Shown: in pieces, positions 2,042-19,257 of the stretch
How the letters are laid out: every line of letters starts with the position of its first letter
How positions within the stretch are numbered: position 1 is the stretch's first letter
From: a virus
Reading direction: 5' to 3' (one strand)
Virus record (IMG/VR): IMGVR_UViG_3300025122_000121
Location: 1 to 27,253 of that record
Length of the DNA stretch: 27,253 nt
Made by a program: the position numbers and the translations under genes
The notes under the pieces: model-generated
Databases searched by the model: none
The model's input: the letters and a program-made list of their open reading frames with translations, nothing else
Told to the model about the DNA's origin: nothing

Positions 2042-2070
2042 ATTGTATAACACTCAACGTAGCTTGTCAA
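2042..2070 (-). promoter_or_regulatory. sigma70-type promoter for the ssb-like gene
   Basis: The -35 TTGACA (2070-2065, perfect) and the -10 TACAAT (2047-2042, five of six) are separated by exactly 17 bases. Transcription should begin near 2035, giving a leader of about 45 bases before the ATG at 1989. It overlaps the last codons of the upstream tubulin-like gene. It is the only convincing host-type promoter I found in the window. Confidence 0.85.
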
Positions 2071-2906
2071 GTGTATTCTTGTATTGCGTTAGTGTGGGCA
2101 ACGCAGAGCCCAAAGTCATCGTGTTCTGTTTCATAGATTGCATATGAAATCTTGCGAAATGCATTTCGAGGTTTCTCTTTGAGCATGTCGACAATTCTTT
2201 TATGTAATCCTCCTTCGTTTTCTAATCTGTTTTTGTTTATACATAGATAATAACATATGTCTCGATCCATGTCAAGCTTATAAAGCCATTTTTCTTCAAG
2301 ATTTTTTATATCTAAAGCTCCATAAGTTCTGATACGGCTGATATCTAATGGCTTTGCAACTATTCCAATTTCTGGCTCTGCATGATTGAAATAGTTTACA
2401 TAGTGAACTGTCGAAAAAATTGAATCATTAATCATATCATAATACTTTTTAATTGGAATGTCTCCAATTGTTTTTTCAATCAGAACATTAGATAAAAGAG
2501 TAATGGAATTAAATAAACCTGAACGTGCGTATTCCTGCAAAATACTAAATACAATCTTGTCTAAAGCTTTTGGAAGGCCGGTCATTAGTTCGGAATCGGG
2601 TTGAATAAAAAAGACATCTATCTTTTTATCTTTAATTTGCTGTAAGATTCCCAACGAATAATTCGAGCTAAAGGATGAGCCTACAACAAAAATCTGTATG
2701 TGATCGTCAGTTGAGTCTAAAAATTTACCTACATTTGGAATATTGGCCTCGTACTCTTCTGGTGTTTCGTATGTTTTTAATTTGAATTTATATTTCGAAT
2801 TTCTCTCGATCTTGTCATTCATAAGATAAACACTGTAGTTTTTTGTTTGTTTGAATTTCTCGGCAATCTTTGAGGCAGCATTACCTAAGCCAATAATTGA
2901 GATCAC
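2067..2906 (-). CDS. Divergent tubulin/FtsZ-like protein, 279 residues
   Basis: The N-terminus reads SIIGLGNAASKIAEKF (residues 3-18), which resembles the first nucleotide-binding loop of the tubulin/FtsZ/CetZ family (G-x-G-x-A/C-G-x-x-I). Residues 71-90 (VVGSSFSSNYSLGIL) occupy the place of the tubulin signature loop GGGTGSG but lack its glycines. Residues 123-144 (LQEYARSGLFN...SNVLIE) resemble the FtsZ helix and strand that end in the conserved Asn-containing loop. EIGIVAKPLDISRIRT (179-194) resembles the position of the FtsZ catalytic loop without its usual acidic pattern. If the fold is right, nucleotide hydrolysis may be lost or altered. The start is GTG at 2906, overlapping the polymerase stop as GTGA. 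A plain Rossmann-type protein is the main alternative. Jumbo-phage PhuZ is the known phage tubulin, but this protein is not obviously PhuZ. Confidence 0.5.
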   Translation of the reverse strand: MISIIGLGNAASKIAEKFKQTKNYSVYLMNDKIERNSKYKFKLKTYETPEEYEANIPNVGKFLDSTDDHIQIFVVGSSFSSNYSLGILQQIKDKKIDVFFIQPDSELMTGLPKALDKIVFSILQEYARSGLFNSITLLSNVLIEKTIGDIPIKKYYDMINDSIFSTVHYVNYFNHAEPEIGIVAKPLDISRIRTYGALDIKNLEEKWLYKLDMDRDICYYLCINKNRLENEGGLHKRIVDMLKEKPRNAFRKISYAIYETEHDDFGLCVAHTNAIQEYT

Positions 2907-4078
2907 AGCTTTATCTCGTTTAGATTATAATAATCTTTTCCTGCTCTAAAGTTTGACAAATAACCATCTTCAAACGCCTCTCTAATTCCCACCACAATGC
3001 CCCTATCTTCATCTGCATAATCAATCACAATTTCATCGTGTACGATATGTGAAATGAATGATTTTTTACCTTCAAGCATTTGATCAATTAAAACTGCCTT
3101 TGACAATACGCGATCTGCCGTTGTGCTTTGGATTAAGTAGTTTAAGGCCTTTCTCTGTTCCACTTTAATTTTGCGTCCATACGGAGTATGAATATGGCCA
3201 TCTATGTAGTATTTGTCAAGAACTTTCTTGCGATCGTAATAGTCTGATTCGATATCATTTGATTCTGGATTATATAGCCATGCGAAGAAATATAGCTTTG
3301 CTTCCTCGCGTGTCATTTCTAAGTCATTGATAATATTCTGAATATTCCATTCATGAATATCATATTCTGGCTGCTCTTGTCCGCTTAAATCTAATAATGT
3401 ACGAATTTCTGCGCCGTTATAATCAAGGCTCATCATAAGATCATTATGAGGCTTGATCACTCTTCGCAGCTCTTTCTTGAGAGTTAACATCGGGAACGAT
3501 TCAGGATGAGTGGTGAGCCTTCCTGTGATTGTTCCAAACATATTGTAATCAATCGTCTTATAGTTCTTCATGAGTTCTTGAATTTTTTGACGGTTCATAG
3601 AAGAATAAAACAGGTGCTTACAATCTTCGCTATTAAGATTAAGCTTCTGATAGCGAATCTTGTGTAAAAGCTTATATACGCCATCGAGATGTTCGTAATT
3701 ATCGGGCCTTTCATAAATCTCAAAAACGTGTTCTGTTACTTTATTTTTAATCTCGCAAAAACGTACAAGAAAATCATGAGGAATTAAATCAAACGCACAA
3801 TGATCCATCATGTTAACTTTTGCGATCTTGAAAGACTTGATGTATGCTCTCATTTTTCTTTGAACAGCTTGAAGCTCGTTACATAAATCTTCTGGGCAGC
3901 AATCAGTAATGGTGCGCCCTCCAGCGCGGATCCAGGCGTATTCCACATCAGGATCTGCAATGGAAGCACTATAGCGCCATGTCTTTGTTAAATCTGTTGG
4001 AAAATCATCAAACGATAACTTGCCGTCTGTATAAATTCCAATGCATTCTGACTTATCGTCAAGTGCTTGAAAAATCAA
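2903..4078 (-). CDS. Compact family A DNA polymerase, 391 residues
   Basis: Template-directed DNA polymerase of the Pol I/T7 type. TGRL (185-188) is the thumb-palm signature. DYNGAEIR (219-226) is motif A with catalytic Asp219. Arg257, Lys261, Phe265 and Tyr269 have the exact i+4 spacing of E. coli Arg754, Lys758, Phe762 and Tyr766 in the O-helix. NYLIQSTTADR (313-323) matches NYxxQGTAAD, and HDE (347-349) is motif C. The position equivalent to E. coli 762 is Phe. The usual O-helix FGxxYG reads FAWLYN, which is degenerate. There is no 3'-5' exonuclease domain, and the first 150 residues are not recognisable, so the protein is far shorter than T7 gp5 (704). The start is TTG at 4078, supported by GGAGGT just upstream and a TTGA overlap with the preceding gene. 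Proofreading, if any, would come from another gene. Confidence 0.9.
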   Translation of the reverse strand: MIFQALDDKSECIGIYTDGKLSFDDFPTDLTKTWRYSASIADPDVEYAWIRAGGRTITDCCPEDLCNELQAVQRKMRAYIKSFKIAKVNMMDHCAFDLIPHDFLVRFCEIKNKVTEHVFEIYERPDNYEHLDGVYKLLHKIRYQKLNLNSEDCKHLFYSSMNRQKIQELMKNYKTIDYNMFGTITGRLTTHPESFPMLTLKKELRRVIKPHNDLMMSLDYNGAEIRTLLDLSGQEQPEYDIHEWNIQNIINDLEMTREEAKLYFFAWLYNPESNDIESDYYDRKKVLDKYYIDGHIHTPYGRKIKVEQRKALNYLIQSTTADRVLSKAVLIDQMLEGKKSFISHIVHDEIVIDYADEDRGIVVGIREAFEDGYLSNFRAGKDYYNLNEIKL

Positions 4079-5322
4079 TAACCACCTCCGGTCATAACAC
4101 CCTCATAAGTTGATTCTGTGGTGCCAGAATCTAATCCTTCTTGTTCTGCTTTCATTTTATTGATTGCCTTTATAATATAACTCAATGAGCCTCGATAGTC
4201 AAACATTTTATTTAAAATAGATTCAAAAATTGCAATAGTTGTGCCTTTGCCGTGTGTTCGATAAACCTGAATTGCTTCCGAGATTAATCTATTTTTTTCA
4301 GCATCAGTAAATTTTGATTCTTCTTCCATAAAACGAATATTAAAATAAAGCTTCAAAAAATATTCCTCACCAAAAATCTCGTCAAGACTTTCACTAGTAT
4401 ATTCAACAGGAGTAATTATCCTCCGAGTACACCCATCATCAAATGTTGCCTGAGTTGGTTTTATCGTGTTATATAGCCTTAATAAATCAAATTTAAGCTT
4501 ATTAAAATATCCATAGGCAGGCGATCGGTATAGCGTCATAAATACGGAATATATATTTGGCATCTTATACTTAGCAGCATAGCTTAACATAGAAACAGTA
4601 TCTAAATCAGCCACCAGTCGCCATGGCGCATTCATGTCAATCATGAACCCATATGTATTACAAGTATTTGCATAAAAATCCCAATTTTTACTATTAACAA
4701 ATTGTTGTATTTTTTGATCATCATTAGAGTGCTTTAAGTCTGCGATTTCAATTACAAGACCCGATACGGACAATGGGCATAGTCTACTTTTAATGAAAGC
4801 CGGCATCGTGAATGGCAATTTACTATTTGTGGTTGCCTCTAAATATGAATTTAAAGCATTGATGAATTGTTCAAAATTTATTATATTTGAATTCTCTTGT
4901 CTAAAAGCAGCTGCAACGGATTTAAAATAAGCCCTTGCATAGTTTGTGTATAATACTGTTGGATCTTCGTATGCCTTGTAAACCTTTAAGTCACTCATGT
5001 ATTGATCGTCTTTATCTATTAATCCCATTCTCGCATGTTTTCTGAATCGTTGGGCCATGGCTTCAAAGTTGTCTACTACAAAATTTACTGCTTTCAAGTC
5101 TTCTTTGTTTGTTTTACCGGTAAACCTTTTTAAACCTTTTTGAGATTTAAATATCATGGGAACGGAATCAACACTCACTCTTCCATATAAATATTTTTCA
5201 CCAAAATGAAAATTGACCACATTTTTTGGACTAAGCCTTGCCATATCACCATAATAAATAATTTTTTTATTAAAGATTTGAGCTATCTCTTCGCTATTGC
5301 TTTCTTTATAATATATTGACAT
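4075..5322 (-). CDS. Unknown protein, 415 residues, coupled to DNA polymerase
   Basis: I do not recognise this protein. It is rich in Tyr, Asn, Lys and Phe, has no signal peptide or membrane segment, and looks like a soluble globular protein. The most distinctive stretch is around residues 185-245, with LCPLSVSGLVIEIADLKH, a Trp-Asp-Phe-Tyr cluster, then GFMIDMNAPWRLVADLD. The end is Gly-rich (TGGGY). The ATG at 5322 follows AGGA at eight bases. Its stop overlaps the polymerase start by four bases, and the polymerase ribosome binding site lies inside its last codons, so the two are translationally coupled. It could be a replication accessory factor or the last of the virion proteins, since it sits exactly at the module boundary. 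Base composition is visibly more A+T-rich than the tail genes. Confidence 0.8.
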   Translation of the reverse strand: MSIYYKESNSEEIAQIFNKKIIYYGDMARLSPKNVVNFHFGEKYLYGRVSVDSVPMIFKSQKGLKRFTGKTNKEDLKAVNFVVDNFEAMAQRFRKHARMGLIDKDDQYMSDLKVYKAYEDPTVLYTNYARAYFKSVAAAFRQENSNIINFEQFINALNSYLEATTNSKLPFTMPAFIKSRLCPLSVSGLVIEIADLKHSNDDQKIQQFVNSKNWDFYANTCNTYGFMIDMNAPWRLVADLDTVSMLSYAAKYKMPNIYSVFMTLYRSPAYGYFNKLKFDLLRLYNTIKPTQATFDDGCTRRIITPVEYTSESLDEIFGEEYFLKLYFNIRFMEEESKFTDAEKNRLISEAIQVYRTHGKGTTIAIFESILNKMFDYRGSLSYIIKAINKMKAEQEGLDSGTTESTYEGVMTGGGY

Positions 5323-5341: not shown

Positions 5342-8300
5342 TTAACTAGTAATTAAGGCTATCGTGTCTCTGAAAAAGCCCATGACTCCACCTTCTTGCT
5401 GCTGAACTTCCCCAAAAGCACCTTCGGTGCCTTCGCCGGTCCACCCAGATGATGCGTTTTTGCGCCAGTCGGCTGAACATTTGTTATATCCAGCAGCATT
5501 ATCGCCGGCTAGCAAGTTGGCTTCCTTGCCTTCTTTTTCTTCTTTTTCGGCAGATTTTTCAATGGAGTTTACCCACTTTGCTTCGATTTCTGTTTCAGCT
5601 ATACCGGGACCAAAAACATGGGTTGAGCGATAAACCATACAATAACCTCCAATGCCATATTCAGATAAATCATAAACGCCGCCACCATAAGAAGACATGT
5701 TGGGAGCAAATCCTAAAGGTTCGACAAATATATATGTTCCAGGAAACACCTGAACATTGGCAAAAGTTTTAGCCGTTACATCATAAACTACTCTTAATTG
5801 TTTTAATCCATCATAGCCGTCCTGTTCAAACCTAACTTCGGCGAGGCCCTTTGAGTCTGTTTTTGTAAGATTGATCTTCTTTATTATCCCATTTGGTTGT
5901 CCTAACATATAGTGAAAAATACCAACCCGTTCATCTAATGCCCTGATGCCTTTCATTTTTTCAAGCGGTTGAGTTCTTCCAGCAAAAAATGCTAAATAAT
6001 TAATTTCACTCTCCGTTGTTCTTTCAGCTATTGGGCTATCTGAGGGCCCATGTACATTTAAAAAGGGTTGGCGCCACCATTCGTGAAGAAAAACATGAGA
6101 AGCGGCTTCCTTCTGATTATTATCATATTGAAGTATTGCTGCAGTAAATTCGTCTCTTGTGGGGCCCTTGCTATCCTGGTATCTCTGAGGATATGACGTT
6201 AGAGCTGCTTGCTGTACTCTTATTTTTTGTTTAACTGATATAGCATAGCAATCGTCGCTATTCAAAAAGTTTTTAATTAAATTATTAAATAAATCATTTA
6301 AAAATTTTGCTAACGGATAAACGCTTTCATTTTTTTTTGCCAGATTATTGGTTAACCATCCAATAAAATATTTTAATGCAATGGGTATGTCACCCATAGA
6401 TGCAAAGAAAGACTCACTAACATTAGCAGGATTAATAACCTCGAAAGGGCCCAAAAGACATCTAAATCTTTCAAATTGTTTTTTAAATTTTACATATTTA
6501 TCTTTTTCTACTTCTCGATCGCATTCCACCGTATTTTCTGTTAACTCATCAATAATGGGCGGCATTTTTTCTAAGGCCTCGTCAATTTGTTCTAAAATAA
6601 CATCTACCAGATCACTAACGTAAAAAAACGGCAAACTTTCACTATTTGGATTTGTGACAGCTAAAGCAGCCTCAAGGCCTTTCTTTTCGGTGCCTTCCAG
6701 TCCGGAGGCACCATAATTTTCTAATGCGCCGTGGACTAAAGTTTCCCAGTCCTCTTGTGTGGATTCGCTGTCTCTTATTAAGTCCCCTACATCAAAATTA
6801 GTCATTTCCGCAAAAGGGCCAAATTTTGTAAAACGCTGTATTTGTTTATATGGAATATTAATATATTTTATTTTATTTCTTCTTAATAATCTTGCAACCA
6901 CAGATTGTACACTTGTGCGCTTCTCTTCTAAAACTTCTTCTGCAAAAGATTCTTTAATCTTGTTAATTTCATCTGCCTCGCATTCTGCTCTCCATTTTTT
7001 CATCTGCAATCTTCGATGAGTCTGTTGCTTGATAATATCCACATCTGAAAAAATATTAAAGAGACCTTGATCGAAAAAATCTTCAACATAAGCTAGATAG
7101 TTAATTGTAAGTGTAACACGCCCCATGTCATCAAAAGCAAAATCATGAACGGTCGGCGTAAGGTTTAAAGTTACATAAGAATTATATATTGCGTCTTTTT
7201 GTGCTTGTGTCAAAAATGCATCATTGGACGGTCGAGCATATCCTACAACTGCTTTTAATCTAAAATTAAGTTTTGAAAGATTTTCATTTTCTTCATAAAC
7301 TGATTTTCTACATCCATATTCTCCCGATTCTAGCTTCTCTCCTCCTACAGCCAACTTAGAGCCCCCTGTCTTTAAGGCTAGATCAACATAACGCCAACCA
7401 CCTCTATCTTTTAGTAGATCATCAAAACTATTAGAAAAGATTACCAATTTGGCTTTAATACTCTTTTTTGCAGCAAATGGATTGCTACCATCATATACGA
7501 ACAAAAACTTTTTAATTCCAACTCCAGCACCTCGCTTATTCTTATCAGAAAGGGCATCAGCGATATCTTTGCTGCTTTGTTCAAAAGGTATTTCTCGTTG
7601 TTGTTCGACTGTACCGGCGCCATATTCTATCTTAAATAGACGTATCATTGGTTGTAAATGTCCCAACTTGTGAGGCTCGATTTTAAATAATTCAGCTTGT
7701 GTTGGGTTTTGTGTAAGTCTATTTATAAAACCATACGGATCTCCTGACGCCATAACACATGCATTTGCGGTAATGCCGCCGTCTTCGCCGGCCGCTTTTC
7801 CTCTAGCGTGATATGGCAAACGTTTTGCGTGTGCGACACCTCCTTCGAATTCTGTCCTTTTGGCAGCTTCATATTTGTTTTCTATTTTGTTTACTTTATA
7901 GTCTATGAATTCATTAATGAAAGAAAGCAAAAAGCACTGTTCCCTATAGAGAATGCGGCGTCCGTATTCGCTAGTTATGAGAATTTCTCCGAGACCATGC
8001 TCTTGCGATGCTTTATTGTGTTCCTCTTGCTTTCTTTTGCCGCGATCGGTACAGCCCTCGGCCGATACCGTCTTTCCTGTGGGGCCCTCAAGTCGAGTAT
8101 CTCCGCGGGCCCATCTACAATAAAAGTTTAACGCTATTTCTGCAGCATCAATCGGCCCAGTAACTTCTTGCTCAATATCTCGCAACATCTTAAGAAATGC
8201 GCCATCATAACCGTCTGTTATTTCTTGAATGCAGCGCGAGTTTTCTTCTATCTTATCTAAAAGTGTGCCGGCTTCAAGCATTTTCTCTCTCATCACCCGC

Positions 8301-10069
8301 AGGGCGCCAGGGGTGCCGCCGGTGGTATTGACTGCATCTACCCCACCATACACCCTATCGAGGTTATATTCAGAACCAAGACCATAATAACCTTGAGGTG
8401 CTGCCGATCTCTTCGCCAGGGGACTCGCGAGGAAATCGATAAACCCCGCCATAATCTCCTCGCGACTATGTTGCTTGAATACAACAGTCCCGCCAAGATC
8501 GGTGAGGGCCGGGTCTTTGCCCCAGGCGGCTCTTTCTGCATCTGATATATAGCCGGGTTCTCCCGGAGCAATATCGCCATACGCGGTCGCGGTGGAATCG
8601 TACAGTGGCCGATCTTCCAATTGTCCGTGTTCTTCTCCGACGTACTGCATCGTGGTCTTCTGACGGCCTTTGACTGTTGGAATTTCCTGTGTAAGAAAGA
8701 TTGAGGCTTTTTGGTGCCAACGCATTTTGGGGGGCCATTCTGATGTGACCATCATCGGATCGCCGGCGCCTGTTGCGGAATAGCCCGTTCCCTCACCATG
8801 CCAGCCTTGAACAGATGCTTCGGCTTCGGCCTTATATCTCTCGATCCGGTTTCGGCGGCTGGTGAAGGACTCGGCCGGCCATGGGTCTCGGACACCCTCT
8901 GGGGTTGTCCATGTGCCCTCGGCGATGGCCTCCATCCCCTCATGCCCGCTGGGGTGACACTTCGACCATCCGGGACCTAAGTTCGGAAGTTCGGAAGGCT
9001 GGCATGCAGCCTCCAATTTTTTAAGTGCAAGGTATACCTCCCATTTTTCTGCGGTTATTCTTTCAATGTCTCGTCTGTCACTCTCCGCTACGGAAGCCCC
9101 CTCCTGAATGTCAACTCGGCTTTGGCGTTCTGTATTCAGCACGTCGAAAATAGATGGGGCGGCGACGGGCCCGTATACATCTGCGCCGGGGTCCGTCCAC
9201 CAATACTTTTCACCAACCAAGCTTAATAAGGTTTCCTTTCCTCCGTAGCCAATATGATGTAAGCCAACGCCAAAACCACCATGATTTCTGCCTTTAACGA
9301 CGCCAAATGCTTCTTCAAGAACCACTTCGCCGTATTTATCGGGATCCTTTAATGCCTCAATATAGAGTTCTTCTATAAACGGGGTACCCCTTTCCATCGA
9401 TTCAAGCGCAGTAGAGTCGCCGGCAATTTCAGCGCTTTTTTGGGAATAAGCAGTATGGCCGCCAAATGATTCCTGTCGAAAAGAAAACATGGGAGGCTGA
9501 GGGATCCCGCCATCGTCGCTGATGCGAATGCGATCGATGCTGAATGAGGCGATGGTCGCCTCATTCAACTTGTCAGGATCTGTTTGTTTCTCTTGACTGT
9601 ATGGTGCATCCAGAACGGTACCGTTGCTTTTTGTTCTAATGTAATCTGCAGGGCCCCACGAGCCGGCATCTGGAGGCCCATATGGGAAGGGATCTGGGAT
9701 GGAACTGACCTTGTGCCCGGGAACCAACGTATAAAAGGGGGCATACCAGTTCTCGAAATCCATTGCCATCCCTATCTTATTGTCATCGAATTCCTTGGCT
9801 ACGTGGTCATAAAACTCCATAGTGTCGTCGAATATCCCGGGCTTCGTGAATTTGGGGCTGAGGAGGACGGCGCCTATGGGATATCCAAATACAGCATTGT
9901 TGATCGCGATCAGCTCGCTATAAATGCGCTCATATGCGTGCATTGCCTCATTAACCGCCTCGATGCAGCTGGGAAGTTCATCGCGAATGCGCTCGGCTGC
10001 AGCCACAACTTCCGGATCCTTGGCGGCCTCGCCCATGAATTGATTTAGAGCGTCTGAATCTGATGCCAT
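5342..10069 (-). CDS. Giant probable baseplate/tail protein, 1575 residues
   Basis: A very long virion-type protein at the end of the tail cluster, directly after the LysM baseplate gene. The first 770 or so residues are rich in Gly, Pro, Glu and Trp and look like an extended or repeated surface domain. From about residue 770 the protein changes character: LFKIEPHKLGHLQPMIRLFKIEY (near 793), GVGIKKFLFVYDGSNPFAAKKSIKAKL (845-870), and LTPTVHDFAFDDMGRVTLTINYLAYVEDFF (968-998). These read as beta-rich baseplate domains seen in large marine contractile phages; I infer this from pattern memory only. The C-terminal 300 residues include beta segments and an acidic, Lys/Glu-rich linker. The N-terminal half is visibly more G+C-rich than the middle, suggesting a mosaic origin. 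The ATG at 10069 has AGAGG six bases upstream. A baseplate wedge or hub role is likely; enzymatic activity is not evident. Confidence 0.75.
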   Translation of the reverse strand: MASDSDALNQFMGEAAKDPEVVAAAERIRDELPSCIEAVNEAMHAYERIYSELIAINNAVFGYPIGAVLLSPKFTKPGIFDDTMEFYDHVAKEFDDNKIGMAMDFENWYAPFYTLVPGHKVSSIPDPFPYGPPDAGSWGPADYIRTKSNGTVLDAPYSQEKQTDPDKLNEATIASFSIDRIRISDDGGIPQPPMFSFRQESFGGHTAYSQKSAEIAGDSTALESMERGTPFIEELYIEALKDPDKYGEVVLEEAFGVVKGRNHGGFGVGLHHIGYGGKETLLSLVGEKYWWTDPGADVYGPVAAPSIFDVLNTERQSRVDIQEGASVAESDRRDIERITAEKWEVYLALKKLEAACQPSELPNLGPGWSKCHPSGHEGMEAIAEGTWTTPEGVRDPWPAESFTSRRNRIERYKAEAEASVQGWHGEGTGYSATGAGDPMMVTSEWPPKMRWHQKASIFLTQEIPTVKGRQKTTMQYVGEEHGQLEDRPLYDSTATAYGDIAPGEPGYISDAERAAWGKDPALTDLGGTVVFKQHSREEIMAGFIDFLASPLAKRSAAPQGYYGLGSEYNLDRVYGGVDAVNTTGGTPGALRVMREKMLEAGTLLDKIEENSRCIQEITDGYDGAFLKMLRDIEQEVTGPIDAAEIALNFYCRWARGDTRLEGPTGKTVSAEGCTDRGKRKQEEHNKASQEHGLGEILITSEYGRRILYREQCFLLSFINEFIDYKVNKIENKYEAAKRTEFEGGVAHAKRLPYHARGKAAGEDGGITANACVMASGDPYGFINRLTQNPTQAELFKIEPHKLGHLQPMIRLFKIEYGAGTVEQQREIPFEQSSKDIADALSDKNKRGAGVGIKKFLFVYDGSNPFAAKKSIKAKLVIFSNSFDDLLKDRGGWRYVDLALKTGGSKLAVGGEKLESGEYGCRKSVYEENENLSKLNFRLKAVVGYARPSNDAFLTQAQKDAIYNSYVTLNLTPTVHDFAFDDMGRVTLTINYLAYVEDFFDQGLFNIFSDVDIIKQQTHRRLQMKKWRAECEADEINKIKESFAEEVLEEKRTSVQSVVARLLRRNKIKYINIPYKQIQRFTKFGPFAEMTNFDVGDLIRDSESTQEDWETLVHGALENYGASGLEGTEKKGLEAALAVTNPNSESLPFFYVSDLVDVILEQIDEALEKMPPIIDELTENTVECDREVEKDKYVKFKKQFERFRCLLGPFEVINPANVSESFFASMGDIPIALKYFIGWLTNNLAKKNESVYPLAKFLNDLFNNLIKNFLNSDDCYAISVKQKIRVQQAALTSYPQRYQDSKGPTRDEFTAAILQYDNNQKEAASHVFLHEWWRQPFLNVHGPSDSPIAERTTESEINYLAFFAGRTQPLEKMKGIRALDERVGIFHYMLGQPNGIIKKINLTKTDSKGLAEVRFEQDGYDGLKQLRVVYDVTAKTFANVQVFPGTYIFVEPLGFAPNMSSYGGGVYDLSEYGIGGYCMVYRSTHVFGPGIAETEIEAKWVNSIEKSAEKEEKEGKEANLLAGDNAAGYNKCSADWRKNASSGWTGEGTEGAFGEVQQQEGGVMGFFRDTIALITS

Positions 10070-16239: not shown

Positions 16240-19200
16240 TTAATCATCAAACGAAGCACCCGTGGAAGTAACAACGAAGTCGATCGCAATGTACTCGATA
16301 GCTCTTGCGGGCTTAATCATAATCTTAGCATACAAAATATTCTGATCAATAAGATCGTCAGTTGTCGTGCTAGAATCAAGTATAAGCTTGTAATCGGTAA
16401 TACCAAATTCCGTCTTAACGTTTGCCAAGAAAGGCTCAATAAGGGCCGTAAACCGATCCCAAGTTGCTTGTACATTTTGCTCAAATAGAATCTGAGTGGC
16501 AAGAATCGAAATCTGCTTCTTAAGATAGATGACAAGCCTTCTCACATTAATTCTATCAAGTGCGCTTGGTAGCTCTTGTAGAGTCTTTTGTCCAAAAACA
16601 ACAATTCCAGTAGATGGGAAAGAAGCAATTGGATTAATTCTGTTTTCGTAAAGTGTGTCTCTTTCCTTGGAAGTTAATCTTTCTGTGACATTCGTAACTG
16701 GAATGCCAGCGGCTCCATCAGTAAGGCCGCCGCGATTAAAGCCGGCTGGCGCAAACCAAATCTGCGAAGATGCATGGGAGCTAGCCAACACGCCCAGCAT
16801 AGCGACAGATGGAGGCACCCAAAGCATGCGGCCGGTATTTTCATCCCTTGTCTGGACCCATGGATAGAATGTAGCTCCATAGCTCGAATCGAGTCTCCTA
16901 GATCTCAAGTCGCGCGCTGTTGCGGCAACGCCCGGGCCGAGTCTAGCAGCCTTGCTAGACTTATACTCCTCATGCGCTGGTGCATACACGCCGGCAAGAT
17001 CAATAATTGCCATGGCATCGGCCCGCTCTTCGCAGACCTTAATCTGGTGAGCGGTCAAATTATCCAAAGTTAATCCGGGAGCAGCAAGGAGGTTCATGTC
17101 AATCTGCTCAGGATCTGCAACGGTATCCATTGCACGATGCCAAGTATGATAAACATAACTATCATCTTCGGTCGAAGTTGAAGACATTCCCTTATTGTAC
17201 ATCGGATCTGGCTTCTTGATATCGAATCCATCGGCGCCACCCCAAACAGGAGCAGTATAACTAGTGATTCCGGCGTCTAACAGATCTGTATAAGATGCTG
17301 TTCCAAAAGCAGTACCAAGAAGACGCGATCCGGATTGATAGAAGAAATCATTGCCGCCGGCCGTTTTAAGTACGATATCATCAAGAGAGAATACGTATGC
17401 ATAATCTTCAATGCCGGTTGTGGCGAAGACATCTACGGGATTCTCACCGCCGCCACCGGTATAGTTAGCATAAAGCAAACGATGGAAATCGGGAATACTT
17501 ACGTCATTAACAGTGCTCTGCGCTGTTCTTGTGGTCTGCATTCCGAAATATGCGTTAGTGGGGTCCGTGAGACCACCATCAGATGCTGATGTACGAAGTC
17601 GTGCTTTGGGAAACACAAAAGAACCGGTGCAGCCGCCATTATCAGTAACGGCATCTATAATGCCATCGCCAGCCATGAGATATAGATCGGTGACGCCTTG
17701 GCCTGAGCCTGAACGCAATATTCCAGCGGAGTTAGGAAGGCCGGTTCCACCAGTTAAGAAGAAGTTGGACAGTAGTCCTTGCGGATTGCTGGCGTGGTGG
17801 CCGGCGTAGCCGGTAGTGCCGCCATATGGTCGAATATTACAGGCGCCAGTACTGGCGACATCGTAAACGCTTCTATACCTTGGGGGTCCGAAATATCCAA
17901 ATGGAAGCAGTGTGCCGTCTGTTGCGCCGGCATCTACGTCACTATTCATTTCAACGTATATAAATTTAGATTGGTTGTCGTATTCGCCATACGTCTTCAG
18001 TCTCTTGCTGTTTTCATCCCAAGACGAATATTTGTTTCCGATCTTGCGCGCAACATAGTTAGGAGAAGAAGGATTAAGATCGCAATTATCGAACCTTTCT
18101 AAGATTTTCATAGAGTTATCTGTATCACCAATGCTGCGAAGTAAGACCGAGAAAGTTCCATATTCGGTGAATGTGGTAGTAGAGCGTCTGATATTAGCAA
18201 TCGAAATCTTAACATTCTTGTGGAGCCACTCGCCGTGGCCTCTTCCGATAAGGCGGAATAGCTTTTGCTGCCTAAACGATACATAACCCGTATAAGTACC
18301 AAGATCCTGGCCAATAAACCAGCCGGTTCGGCCTTCACGAGAGGCCTGTTTTTTCATTTCAAACGGACCTACAGTTGCGCCTTTGCCGATTGACATCATA
18401 ACGCCCAGGGCGCCCGATGTAAATCCGCGATCTCTTAATTCTTGTTCATAAGTCTCGCCAAGCCAATAATCTTTTGCGCCAAGAGAGGTATAGAATGTTG
18501 AAGCGCTCACAAGCTGTGGATTCGTGTTAAACTTCTTGCGGATAAAGTTCGCATTGCTGTCATCAAAACCAAATCTGATTTTTTCTGTGCCAGCGGGACC
18601 ACTAATAACCACAGTATATAAGTTATCAGAATCTACTCCAATTACCATGTTATTCGCGCCAGTAAGAGCACCAGAGGCTGCAGTGTCGGCGGCGGTGAAT
18701 ATTCCAGATCCATTGACTTTGCCGCCATATACGGTACCACTCAAATAGATGTCTGCGTTATCGACATACCAAATAGCTGCCAAGCTGCCTGTTCCAATGT
18801 TGGCTTGGGTGTTTGCTCCGGAAGTGAAAAGCCACAATCCATAAGCACCGCCGTTCTGGGCCGGGGTACGATTTATCGTCTCGTTAGTTCTCCAGCCTGC
18901 AGCGGCGTCATCACCTGCGGCCTTTCCTGCAGTAGTCTGCTGACCTAGCAAGCGAACATATGTAACAGGAGCCACATTTGAGGCCAAAAAGGCTTTTGCG
19001 GCGTAAGTGCCGTACATAGGAGACTGATGGTTTCCATCGCGATAAATGTCGCCGCCTTCCTTACCAGGGGCAGTATCGCCAAACATTGTCACAAAATCGG
19101 CATAAGATTCAACTTTAACGGGAGTCATCCCTAAGCCTCGGCGGGATCGACCCACCACTACGGGCCCGATGGCACCTGCTGTTTTAGGTAAAAACGAGTT

Positions 19201-19257
19201 GTCTATTTCATTAATAAACACTCCAGGAGATACAAACTTAAAACTTTTTATTGACAT
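16240..19257 (-). CDS. Tail sheath protein (T4 gp18-like), 1005 residues
   Basis: Contractile outer sheath subunit. The N-terminus SPGVFINEIDNSFLP (9-23), then AIGPVVVGRSRRGLG, is the classic sheath start. A Phe/Asp patch YADFVTMFGDTAPG follows. The C-terminal 200 residues carry the conserved core: ENRINPIASFPSTGIVVFGQKTL, DRINVRRLVIYLKKQI, LFEQNVQATWDRF and YAKIMIKPARAIEYIAIDFVV. At 1005 residues it is about half as long again as T4 gp18 (659). The extra residues lie in the middle (about 120-750) and read as Gly/Ser/Thr-rich beta domains, probably exposed on the tail surface. The ATG at 19257 follows AGAGGA. A late-promoter motif lies 49 bases upstream. Confidence 0.95.
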   Translation of the reverse strand: MSIKSFKFVSPGVFINEIDNSFLPKTAGAIGPVVVGRSRRGLGMTPVKVESYADFVTMFGDTAPGKEGGDIYRDGNHQSPMYGTYAAKAFLASNVAPVTYVRLLGQQTTAGKAAGDDAAAGWRTNETINRTPAQNGGAYGLWLFTSGANTQANIGTGSLAAIWYVDNADIYLSGTVYGGKVNGSGIFTAADTAASGALTGANNMVIGVDSDNLYTVVISGPAGTEKIRFGFDDSNANFIRKKFNTNPQLVSASTFYTSLGAKDYWLGETYEQELRDRGFTSGALGVMMSIGKGATVGPFEMKKQASREGRTGWFIGQDLGTYTGYVSFRQQKLFRLIGRGHGEWLHKNVKISIANIRRSTTTFTEYGTFSVLLRSIGDTDNSMKILERFDNCDLNPSSPNYVARKIGNKYSSWDENSKRLKTYGEYDNQSKFIYVEMNSDVDAGATDGTLLPFGYFGPPRYRSVYDVASTGACNIRPYGGTTGYAGHHASNPQGLLSNFFLTGGTGLPNSAGILRSGSGQGVTDLYLMAGDGIIDAVTDNGGCTGSFVFPKARLRTSASDGGLTDPTNAYFGMQTTRTAQSTVNDVSIPDFHRLLYANYTGGGGENPVDVFATTGIEDYAYVFSLDDIVLKTAGGNDFFYQSGSRLLGTAFGTASYTDLLDAGITSYTAPVWGGADGFDIKKPDPMYNKGMSSTSTEDDSYVYHTWHRAMDTVADPEQIDMNLLAAPGLTLDNLTAHQIKVCEERADAMAIIDLAGVYAPAHEEYKSSKAARLGPGVAATARDLRSRRLDSSYGATFYPWVQTRDENTGRMLWVPPSVAMLGVLASSHASSQIWFAPAGFNRGGLTDGAAGIPVTNVTERLTSKERDTLYENRINPIASFPSTGIVVFGQKTLQELPSALDRINVRRLVIYLKKQISILATQILFEQNVQATWDRFTALIEPFLANVKTEFGITDYKLILDSSTTTDDLIDQNILYAKIMIKPARAIEYIAIDFVVTSTGASFDD

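Follow-up and report, generated by a model that had tools for sequence, protein, structure and literature searches.

The known phage tubulins, PhuZ and TubZ, are single GTPases, and they occur in nucleus-forming jumbo phages or in plasmid-like phages. Two phage tubulin groups have been described, TubZ of phage C-st and PhuZ (PMC7950403), and a survey of jumbo phages recorded two distinct FtsZ/tubulin representatives (PMC7824862). TubZ works together with TubR and a centromere (PMC7950403), and PhuZ keeps the catalytic aspartate of the T7 loop (PMC3678025). The far-T4 genome paper mentions neither tubulin nor FtsZ (PMC4360716), and our partial coverage of the open literature returned no paper on a phage with two tubulins.

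Here we consider a gene from an uncultured virus, found in IMG/VR record IMGVR_UViG_3300025122_000121, positions 1 to 27,253; this stretch of 27,253 nt is called the window below. The open reading frame at 2067-2906 on the minus strand starts with GTG and encodes 279 aa. Its product, D, had been predicted from the sequence to be a divergent tubulin/FtsZ-like protein made together with a DNA polymerase. The same group of phages encodes a second FtsZ-like protein of about 380 aa, which we call C.

Gene D and its replication neighborhood

The reading frame is a real gene, since it is kept at no fewer than 576 IMG/VR loci (at least that many in a profile scan; a single-sequence scan returned 58 relatives) and is under strong purifying selection, the median dN/dS being 0.058 over 442 pairs. 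Scans started from divergent members added a further clade, about 45% identical to that of the window. The comparisons below use 179 distinct full-length relatives that are about 45-100% identical. Sequence and profile searches gave no credible family match to D in Pfam, PHROG or PDB. The gene is in none of 50,697 phage records, isolate phages included (the sole match had an E-value of 5), and a scan of GTDB contigs with short conserved patterns found neither D nor C in cellular genomes.

By Pfam, the D gene is flanked by a DNA polymerase on one side and a gp32-like gene on the other. The polymerase, a small enzyme of family A with 391 aa, is encoded at 2903-4078 on the minus strand (PF00476, E 3.5e-12; phrog_17, DNA polymerase). 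Its stop overlaps the start of D by 4 nt, GTGA, at 2903-2906 on the same strand, an arrangement that suggests translational coupling. The overlap is exactly 4 nt in 167/167 junctions in which a polymerase motif was found, out of 170 testable loci, and the predicted joint translation with the polymerase is borne out to that extent. Co-translated proteins often have a fixed stoichiometry or touch one another, but co-translation proves neither. What the gene overlap shows is joint dosage of the polymerase and D, not physical contact.

The gp32-like single-stranded-DNA-binding protein is encoded at 1219-1989 on the minus strand, with its ATG at 1989 (PF08804, E 1.7e-14; phrog_1192, E 1.1e-23). Ahead of this ssb gene lies a sigma-70-like promoter, TTGACA-17-TACAAT (2042-2070, minus strand; 11/12 matches), which overlaps the stop codon of D, so that D does end within the promoter of the ssb-like gene, as had been noted at the outset. 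A promoter-like site with at most two mismatches is present at 159 of the 168 D-ssb junctions, vs. 6/179 in-gene controls. From these sequence features, the polymerase and D would seem to be translated as a unit, and the gp32-like gene to have a start of its own.

Several other genes of the neighborhood deserve a record. Upstream of the polymerase, and overlapping it by 4 nt, is a gene of 415 aa (4075-5322, minus strand) that has no family and only a sub-threshold Pfam match; a gene of similar length occupies the same place in another locus (L058, 2513-3808). A protein of 1,575 aa without a PHROG match (5342-10069, minus strand) is encoded between the window's replication module and its tail genes. 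On the 203-kb contig of L058, a D12-class adenine methyltransferase and a 384-aa gene of unknown function are found between the gp32-like and UvsX-like genes (6774-9040). In the window and in two further loci (L335 and L336), a UvsX/RecA-like gene comes next after ssb, with neither the methyltransferase nor the 384-aa gene in between.

Predicted fold and nucleotide-side loops of D

AlphaFold2, run without templates on an alignment of 94 members of the D family, gave a model with a pLDDT of 93.3, a pTM of 0.91 and no residues below 50. As the alignment held D relatives only, the fold signal came from the D family itself. An earlier run with 40 close sequences was poorer, its C-terminal domain above all (pLDDT 66); it also matched FtsZ, for the N-terminal part, which was a lead only until the 94-sequence model was at hand. 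When that model was compared with PDB by Foldseek, the best 50 matches were all FtsZ/TubZ, with E-values of 3e-12 to 2e-10, and for nearly all of them the TM score normalized by D was 0.65-0.73. The alignments run over about 310-360 columns, and therefore the match spans both FtsZ/TubZ domains. In BFVD, the best matches were FtsZ of an uncultured phage (E 3e-13), the PhuZ encoded by phage Noxifer, and a protein annotated for cell division in another phage record. The model has an N-terminal domain of the nucleotide-binding type, a core helix and a C-terminal alpha/beta domain, in the tubulin order. It is nearly certain from this model that D has the two-domain fold of FtsZ/TubZ, and the fold originally predicted for the reading frame is upheld over both domains.

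The sequence of D is a different matter. PF00091 matched none of the 40 D members scanned. In profile comparisons (hhalign), D vs. FtsZ gave a probability of 1.2%, that is, no similarity; D vs. C gave 1.6%, and D vs. C plus gp138 of phage G gave 4.5%. The best local profile matches fall on structurally equivalent segments (S6-T6-H7 and T1), despite their low probabilities. At these values, the idea that D is a degenerate relative visible by sequence was rejected. The PhuZ profile phrog_4733 had no match to D either, the only PHROG match being phrog_6705 at an E-value of 0.066. Of the two kinds of evidence by which the prediction was to be judged, structure comparison thus agreed with it, the top matches being FtsZ and TubZ, and profile comparison with FtsZ did not. 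We call D an FtsZ-fold protein or pseudo-FtsZ, and not FtsZ, PhuZ or TubZ, because its structure places it in the superfamily, whereas by sequence and catalytic residues it does not qualify for the GTPase family.

The order of elements in the model is S1, T1, H1, S2, a short H2-H3 stretch, S4, T4, H4, S5, T5, H5, S6, T6, H6 and the core helix H7 (152-175), with no H8 and no H9; the assignment in tubulin nomenclature is our own and follows this order. The helix at 152-175 corresponds to the core helix, so that the missing helix is H8 and not H7; there is no helix between 175 and 225. The short C-terminal domain consists of strands 192-198 and 216-224, helices within 225-243, and strands 252-260 and 265-272.

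At the T1 position, D has GLGNAAS (residues 6-12; 2871-2891, minus strand), which in the model lies at the junction of S1 (2-7) and H1 (9-20). Across the 179 sequences, G6 and G8 hardly ever change, whereas position 7 can be either L or I and position 9 is variable. The expected conservation of GLGNA therefore holds for G-[LI]-G, but not for GLGNA as such. The T4 position, which in the model follows strand 69-75 and leads into helix 79-90, is occupied by GSSFSSNY (residues 76-83; 2658-2681, minus strand). Throughout the family this loop is rich in Ser and Asn and usually reads G-S-S-x-S-[SA]-N-Y, with G76 invariant in the 179 and S80, N82 and Y83 present in 167-168. GGGTG is found at this position in 0/179, nor is the FtsZ signature [SAG]GGTG[SAT]G present; the replacement of GGGTGSG by GSSFSSN (residues 76-82), first read from the single sequence, is thus a property of the family. 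The T7 region (residues 176-190; 2337-2381, minus strand) follows the core helix and has no DxxD, and H8 is missing after it. No acid is conserved at residues 176-190 in the 179 sequences, so that the catalytic acids of the NxDxxD type are absent: E177 and E179 give way to T, S, L, I or H in some members, P178 is conserved and G181 is invariant. The catalytic loop that had not been evident in the window's protein is accordingly lacking, as an acid pair, in all the relatives.

Other loops have been kept. P103-D104 of T5 is invariant in the 179 sequences, and S139 and N140 of T6 are present in 176/179 each. The better conserved parts of D include the T4-equivalent loop, T5 and the last two strands, and conservation peaks at FGxCVAHTN in the C-terminal strands, at a distance from the catalytic parts that have been lost. 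Judged by its sequence, D lacks the known hydrolysis machinery of FtsZ and retains some of the nucleotide-side loops. The altered nucleotide chemistry that was originally proposed is better worded as this loss, to which all 179 sequences testify.

The putative partner C and the phages that carry both

A Pfam Tubulin search of large contigs found C in five of six clade contigs (G001, G002, G006, G007, and G008), the sixth, G009, being a 41-kb fragment. The genes lie at 1297-2445 in L162 and L164, 1039-2187 in L163, and 1318-2442 in L165 and L166. C is a member of the PF00091 family: it scores above the curated cut-off (42.0 and 35.1 bits vs. 33), matches FtsZ in PDB by sequence (E 3.5e-10), and in profile comparison with FtsZ reaches a probability of 97.6% (E 4.5e-12). 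Its T1 (GVGGGG), T4 (AGGGGGTGS), T6 (DNER) and T7 (FDxxDLE) motifs show little or no variation across 70 distinct sequences, and T1, T4 and T7 are those of the family. The only relative of C in an isolate phage is gp138 of Bacillus phage G, which is 23.5% identical. In addition, the N terminus of C is extended by a conserved stretch of about 60 aa with acidic/hydrophobic peptides (EFDFL and EDFGMVEDFG), which could serve to bind a partner. The C gene of L162 and L164 shares 4 nt with an overlapping SbcC-like recombination gene.

With its 27 kb, the window ends before the place of C, and the relation of the two genes comes from longer contigs. Starting from D contigs, C was found in ten, two of them with a partial gene at the contig end; starting from C contigs, D was found in six, four of them new. 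Together, 14 contigs span both places, and every one of them has both D and C, with C roughly 39-47 kb upstream of D and on the same strand. The spacings are derived from contig coordinates, and that of G010 requires the genome to be circular. Where a contig has one gene without the other, the place expected for the second lies past the contig end. The two proteins evolve differently: in 12 genome pairs, the mean identity was 58% for D vs. 81% for C, and hence D evolves faster, and the divergences of D and C were uncorrelated (r 0.17, p 0.17). The distance of about 40 kb between the genes, the faster evolution of D and the lack of correlation do not favor a tight conserved interface. Profiles connect D with neither C nor FtsZ (probability 1-5%), so that C may not be the ancestor of D.

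The carriers of D and C are uncultured, mostly marine, T4-like viruses of bacteria. By identity, the nearest capsid and sheath relatives are those of Rhodothermus phage RM378, Flavobacterium phage immuto and Microcystis phage Mel-JY01, which points to far-T4-like phages. The major capsid protein is 39-50% identical to those of immuto, Mel-JY01, RM378 and the uncultured phage LR756508, and the nearest records to the tail sheath come from the same four phages. The sheath of the window (16240-19257, minus strand) has 1,005 aa and is much longer than in immuto or RM378; its similarity to them is in separate pieces only, which suggests large inserted domains.

Neither D nor C was found in immuto and the other far-T4-like relatives searched. 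The replication module of immuto is the same, with a small family A polymerase (441 aa), ssb, RecA, exonuclease and DnaB, and it has two short genes between the polymerase and ssb, where D would be. Whether these could be a split D was considered and rejected, the sequences being unrelated by eye. Since the isolates have neither gene, both were gained in the uncultured clade or both were lost in the others. Unusually small family A polymerases, of 391-441 aa, are common to the clade (2903-4078, minus strand, in the window) and immuto (L430, 1-1326), and immuto has a second, longer family A polymerase too (L432, 3855-6188).

Possible roles of D and known systems

We infer for D the replication-linked cytoskeletal role that was suggested originally, and the idea gained support from C, the second FtsZ-like gene of these phages, whose motifs are intact. 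In the form that we tentatively prefer, D would be a non-hydrolysing pseudo-FtsZ that interacts with C and serves as a cap or anchor of its filaments where the phage DNA is replicated. D appears to retain the nucleotide ("top") face in its general architecture and to have lost the T7/H8 ("bottom") face, by which a subunit docks on the nucleotide of its neighbor. With one face kept and the other lost, D could join a C filament only at the end where T7/H8 is exposed. There it might cap, seed or anchor C, somewhat as gamma-tubulin does for microtubules. Co-synthesis with the polymerase would put the D-bound end of the filament at the phage replication center, and the C filaments could then organize, segregate or center the replicating phage DNA.

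The evidence does not firmly separate this capping or anchoring role from three others. D could be an accessory of the polymerase or replisome, in which the FtsZ fold is reused as a protein-protein (or protein-DNA) module that stabilizes or loads the small polymerase, with no filament and no tie to C. Such a role would account for the overlap with the polymerase at 167/167 junctions, the location of D between the polymerase and the gp32-like gene, the small size of a polymerase of 391 aa, and the concentration of conserved residues in the C-terminal strands rather than around the lost catalytic parts. We nevertheless find it doubtful, for immuto has a similar small polymerase and module without D, showing that such a polymerase needs no D, and the co-occurrence with C in 14/14 contigs would be left aside. 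A more unlikely role is that of a decoy, in which D caps protofilaments of the host FtsZ and blocks division of the infected cell. A protein with the FtsZ fold and no hydrolysis motifs would make a suitable poison subunit, and phage FtsZ inhibitors are common, several of them working via other folds, in the part of that literature available to us. But D is locked to the polymerase and is not among small early genes for host takeover, and its family ranges down to about 45% identity, whereas a mimic that binds host filaments should track a conserved host protein.

It is quite improbable, too, that D forms filaments of its own as an NTPase of altered chemistry, binding a nucleotide or another ligand via the Ser/Asn-rich T4-like loop, which would be the stronger form of the original suggestion. 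The conservation of that loop, of P103-D104 in T5 and of G-[LI]-G is what one would expect of such a protein; the T7 acids and helix H8, needed for docking and hydrolysis in FtsZ, are however missing. Finally, D might have been a Rossmann-fold NAD or nucleotide-sugar enzyme, like FtsZ only in the shared N-terminal alpha/beta topology. Some members do have weak Pfam matches to F420_oxidored, CoA_binding and GARS_N, the window protein being well below the cut-off, but the full-length model did not show the plain NAD-type Rossmann fold that was to count against the prediction. Its best 50 PDB matches are FtsZ/TubZ at a TM of about 0.7, with the C-terminal domain included, and this enzyme is thereby ruled out as far as a predicted structure can do so.

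If the capping or anchoring role of D is extended to the phage as a whole, one arrives at a two-component viral tubulin cytoskeleton, in which C makes the hydrolysing filament, and D, GTPase-dead, one-faced and made in step with the replicative polymerase, seeds or anchors C at the replication site. The complete scheme is speculative and, taken with all its parts, rather unlikely; if true, it would be a prokaryotic-virus analogue of a gamma-tubulin-like organizer. The findings suggest that these phages, though outside the phiKZ-like group, also organize replicating DNA with a cytoskeleton. They also explain an otherwise unannotated gene of hundreds of viral contigs, and make of D and C a directly testable protein pair.

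Among known systems, D shares its fold with FtsZ (PF00091; for instance S. aureus 6rvn and E. coli 6ll6). The two-domain fold is predicted over the full length of D with the same order of strands and helices, and the likeness extends to an H7-equivalent core helix, a glycine T1 loop and an Asn at the T6 position. D differs from FtsZ in having no GGGTGxG, no T7 acid pair, no H8, a shortened C-terminal domain and only about 10% identity. PhuZ of the phiKZ-like nucleus-forming phages (phrog_4733) is a tubulin fold of phages, and the D model matches PhuZ of Noxifer (E 2e-7); in contrast to PhuZ, D lacks the T7 aspartate, is outside phrog_4733, and occurs in a T4-like phage with a gp23-type capsid, coupled to a polymerase and accompanied by C, a second FtsZ-like protein. 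The fold of D matches also that of TubZ of Bacillus plasmids and phage C-st, but D is without the GTPase motifs. It is the partner C that gp138 of Bacillus phage G resembles.

Among cellular proteins, plant ARC3 is a GTPase-poor FtsZ-like regulator, and gamma-tubulin is a filament seed that keeps GTP binding. The likeness of D to these two would be one of functional idea, that of a tubulin-fold controller which acts on the filaments of a canonical partner and does not itself drive them. We know of no earlier dedicated pseudo-tubulin in a phage. What is new with respect to PhuZ and TubZ is the presence of two tubulin-superfamily proteins with opposite fates in a widespread group of uncultured T4-like phages: C has remained a strictly conserved GTPase by its motifs, whereas D evolves faster, has been stripped of the hydrolysis motifs and is hard-wired to the translation of the polymerase.
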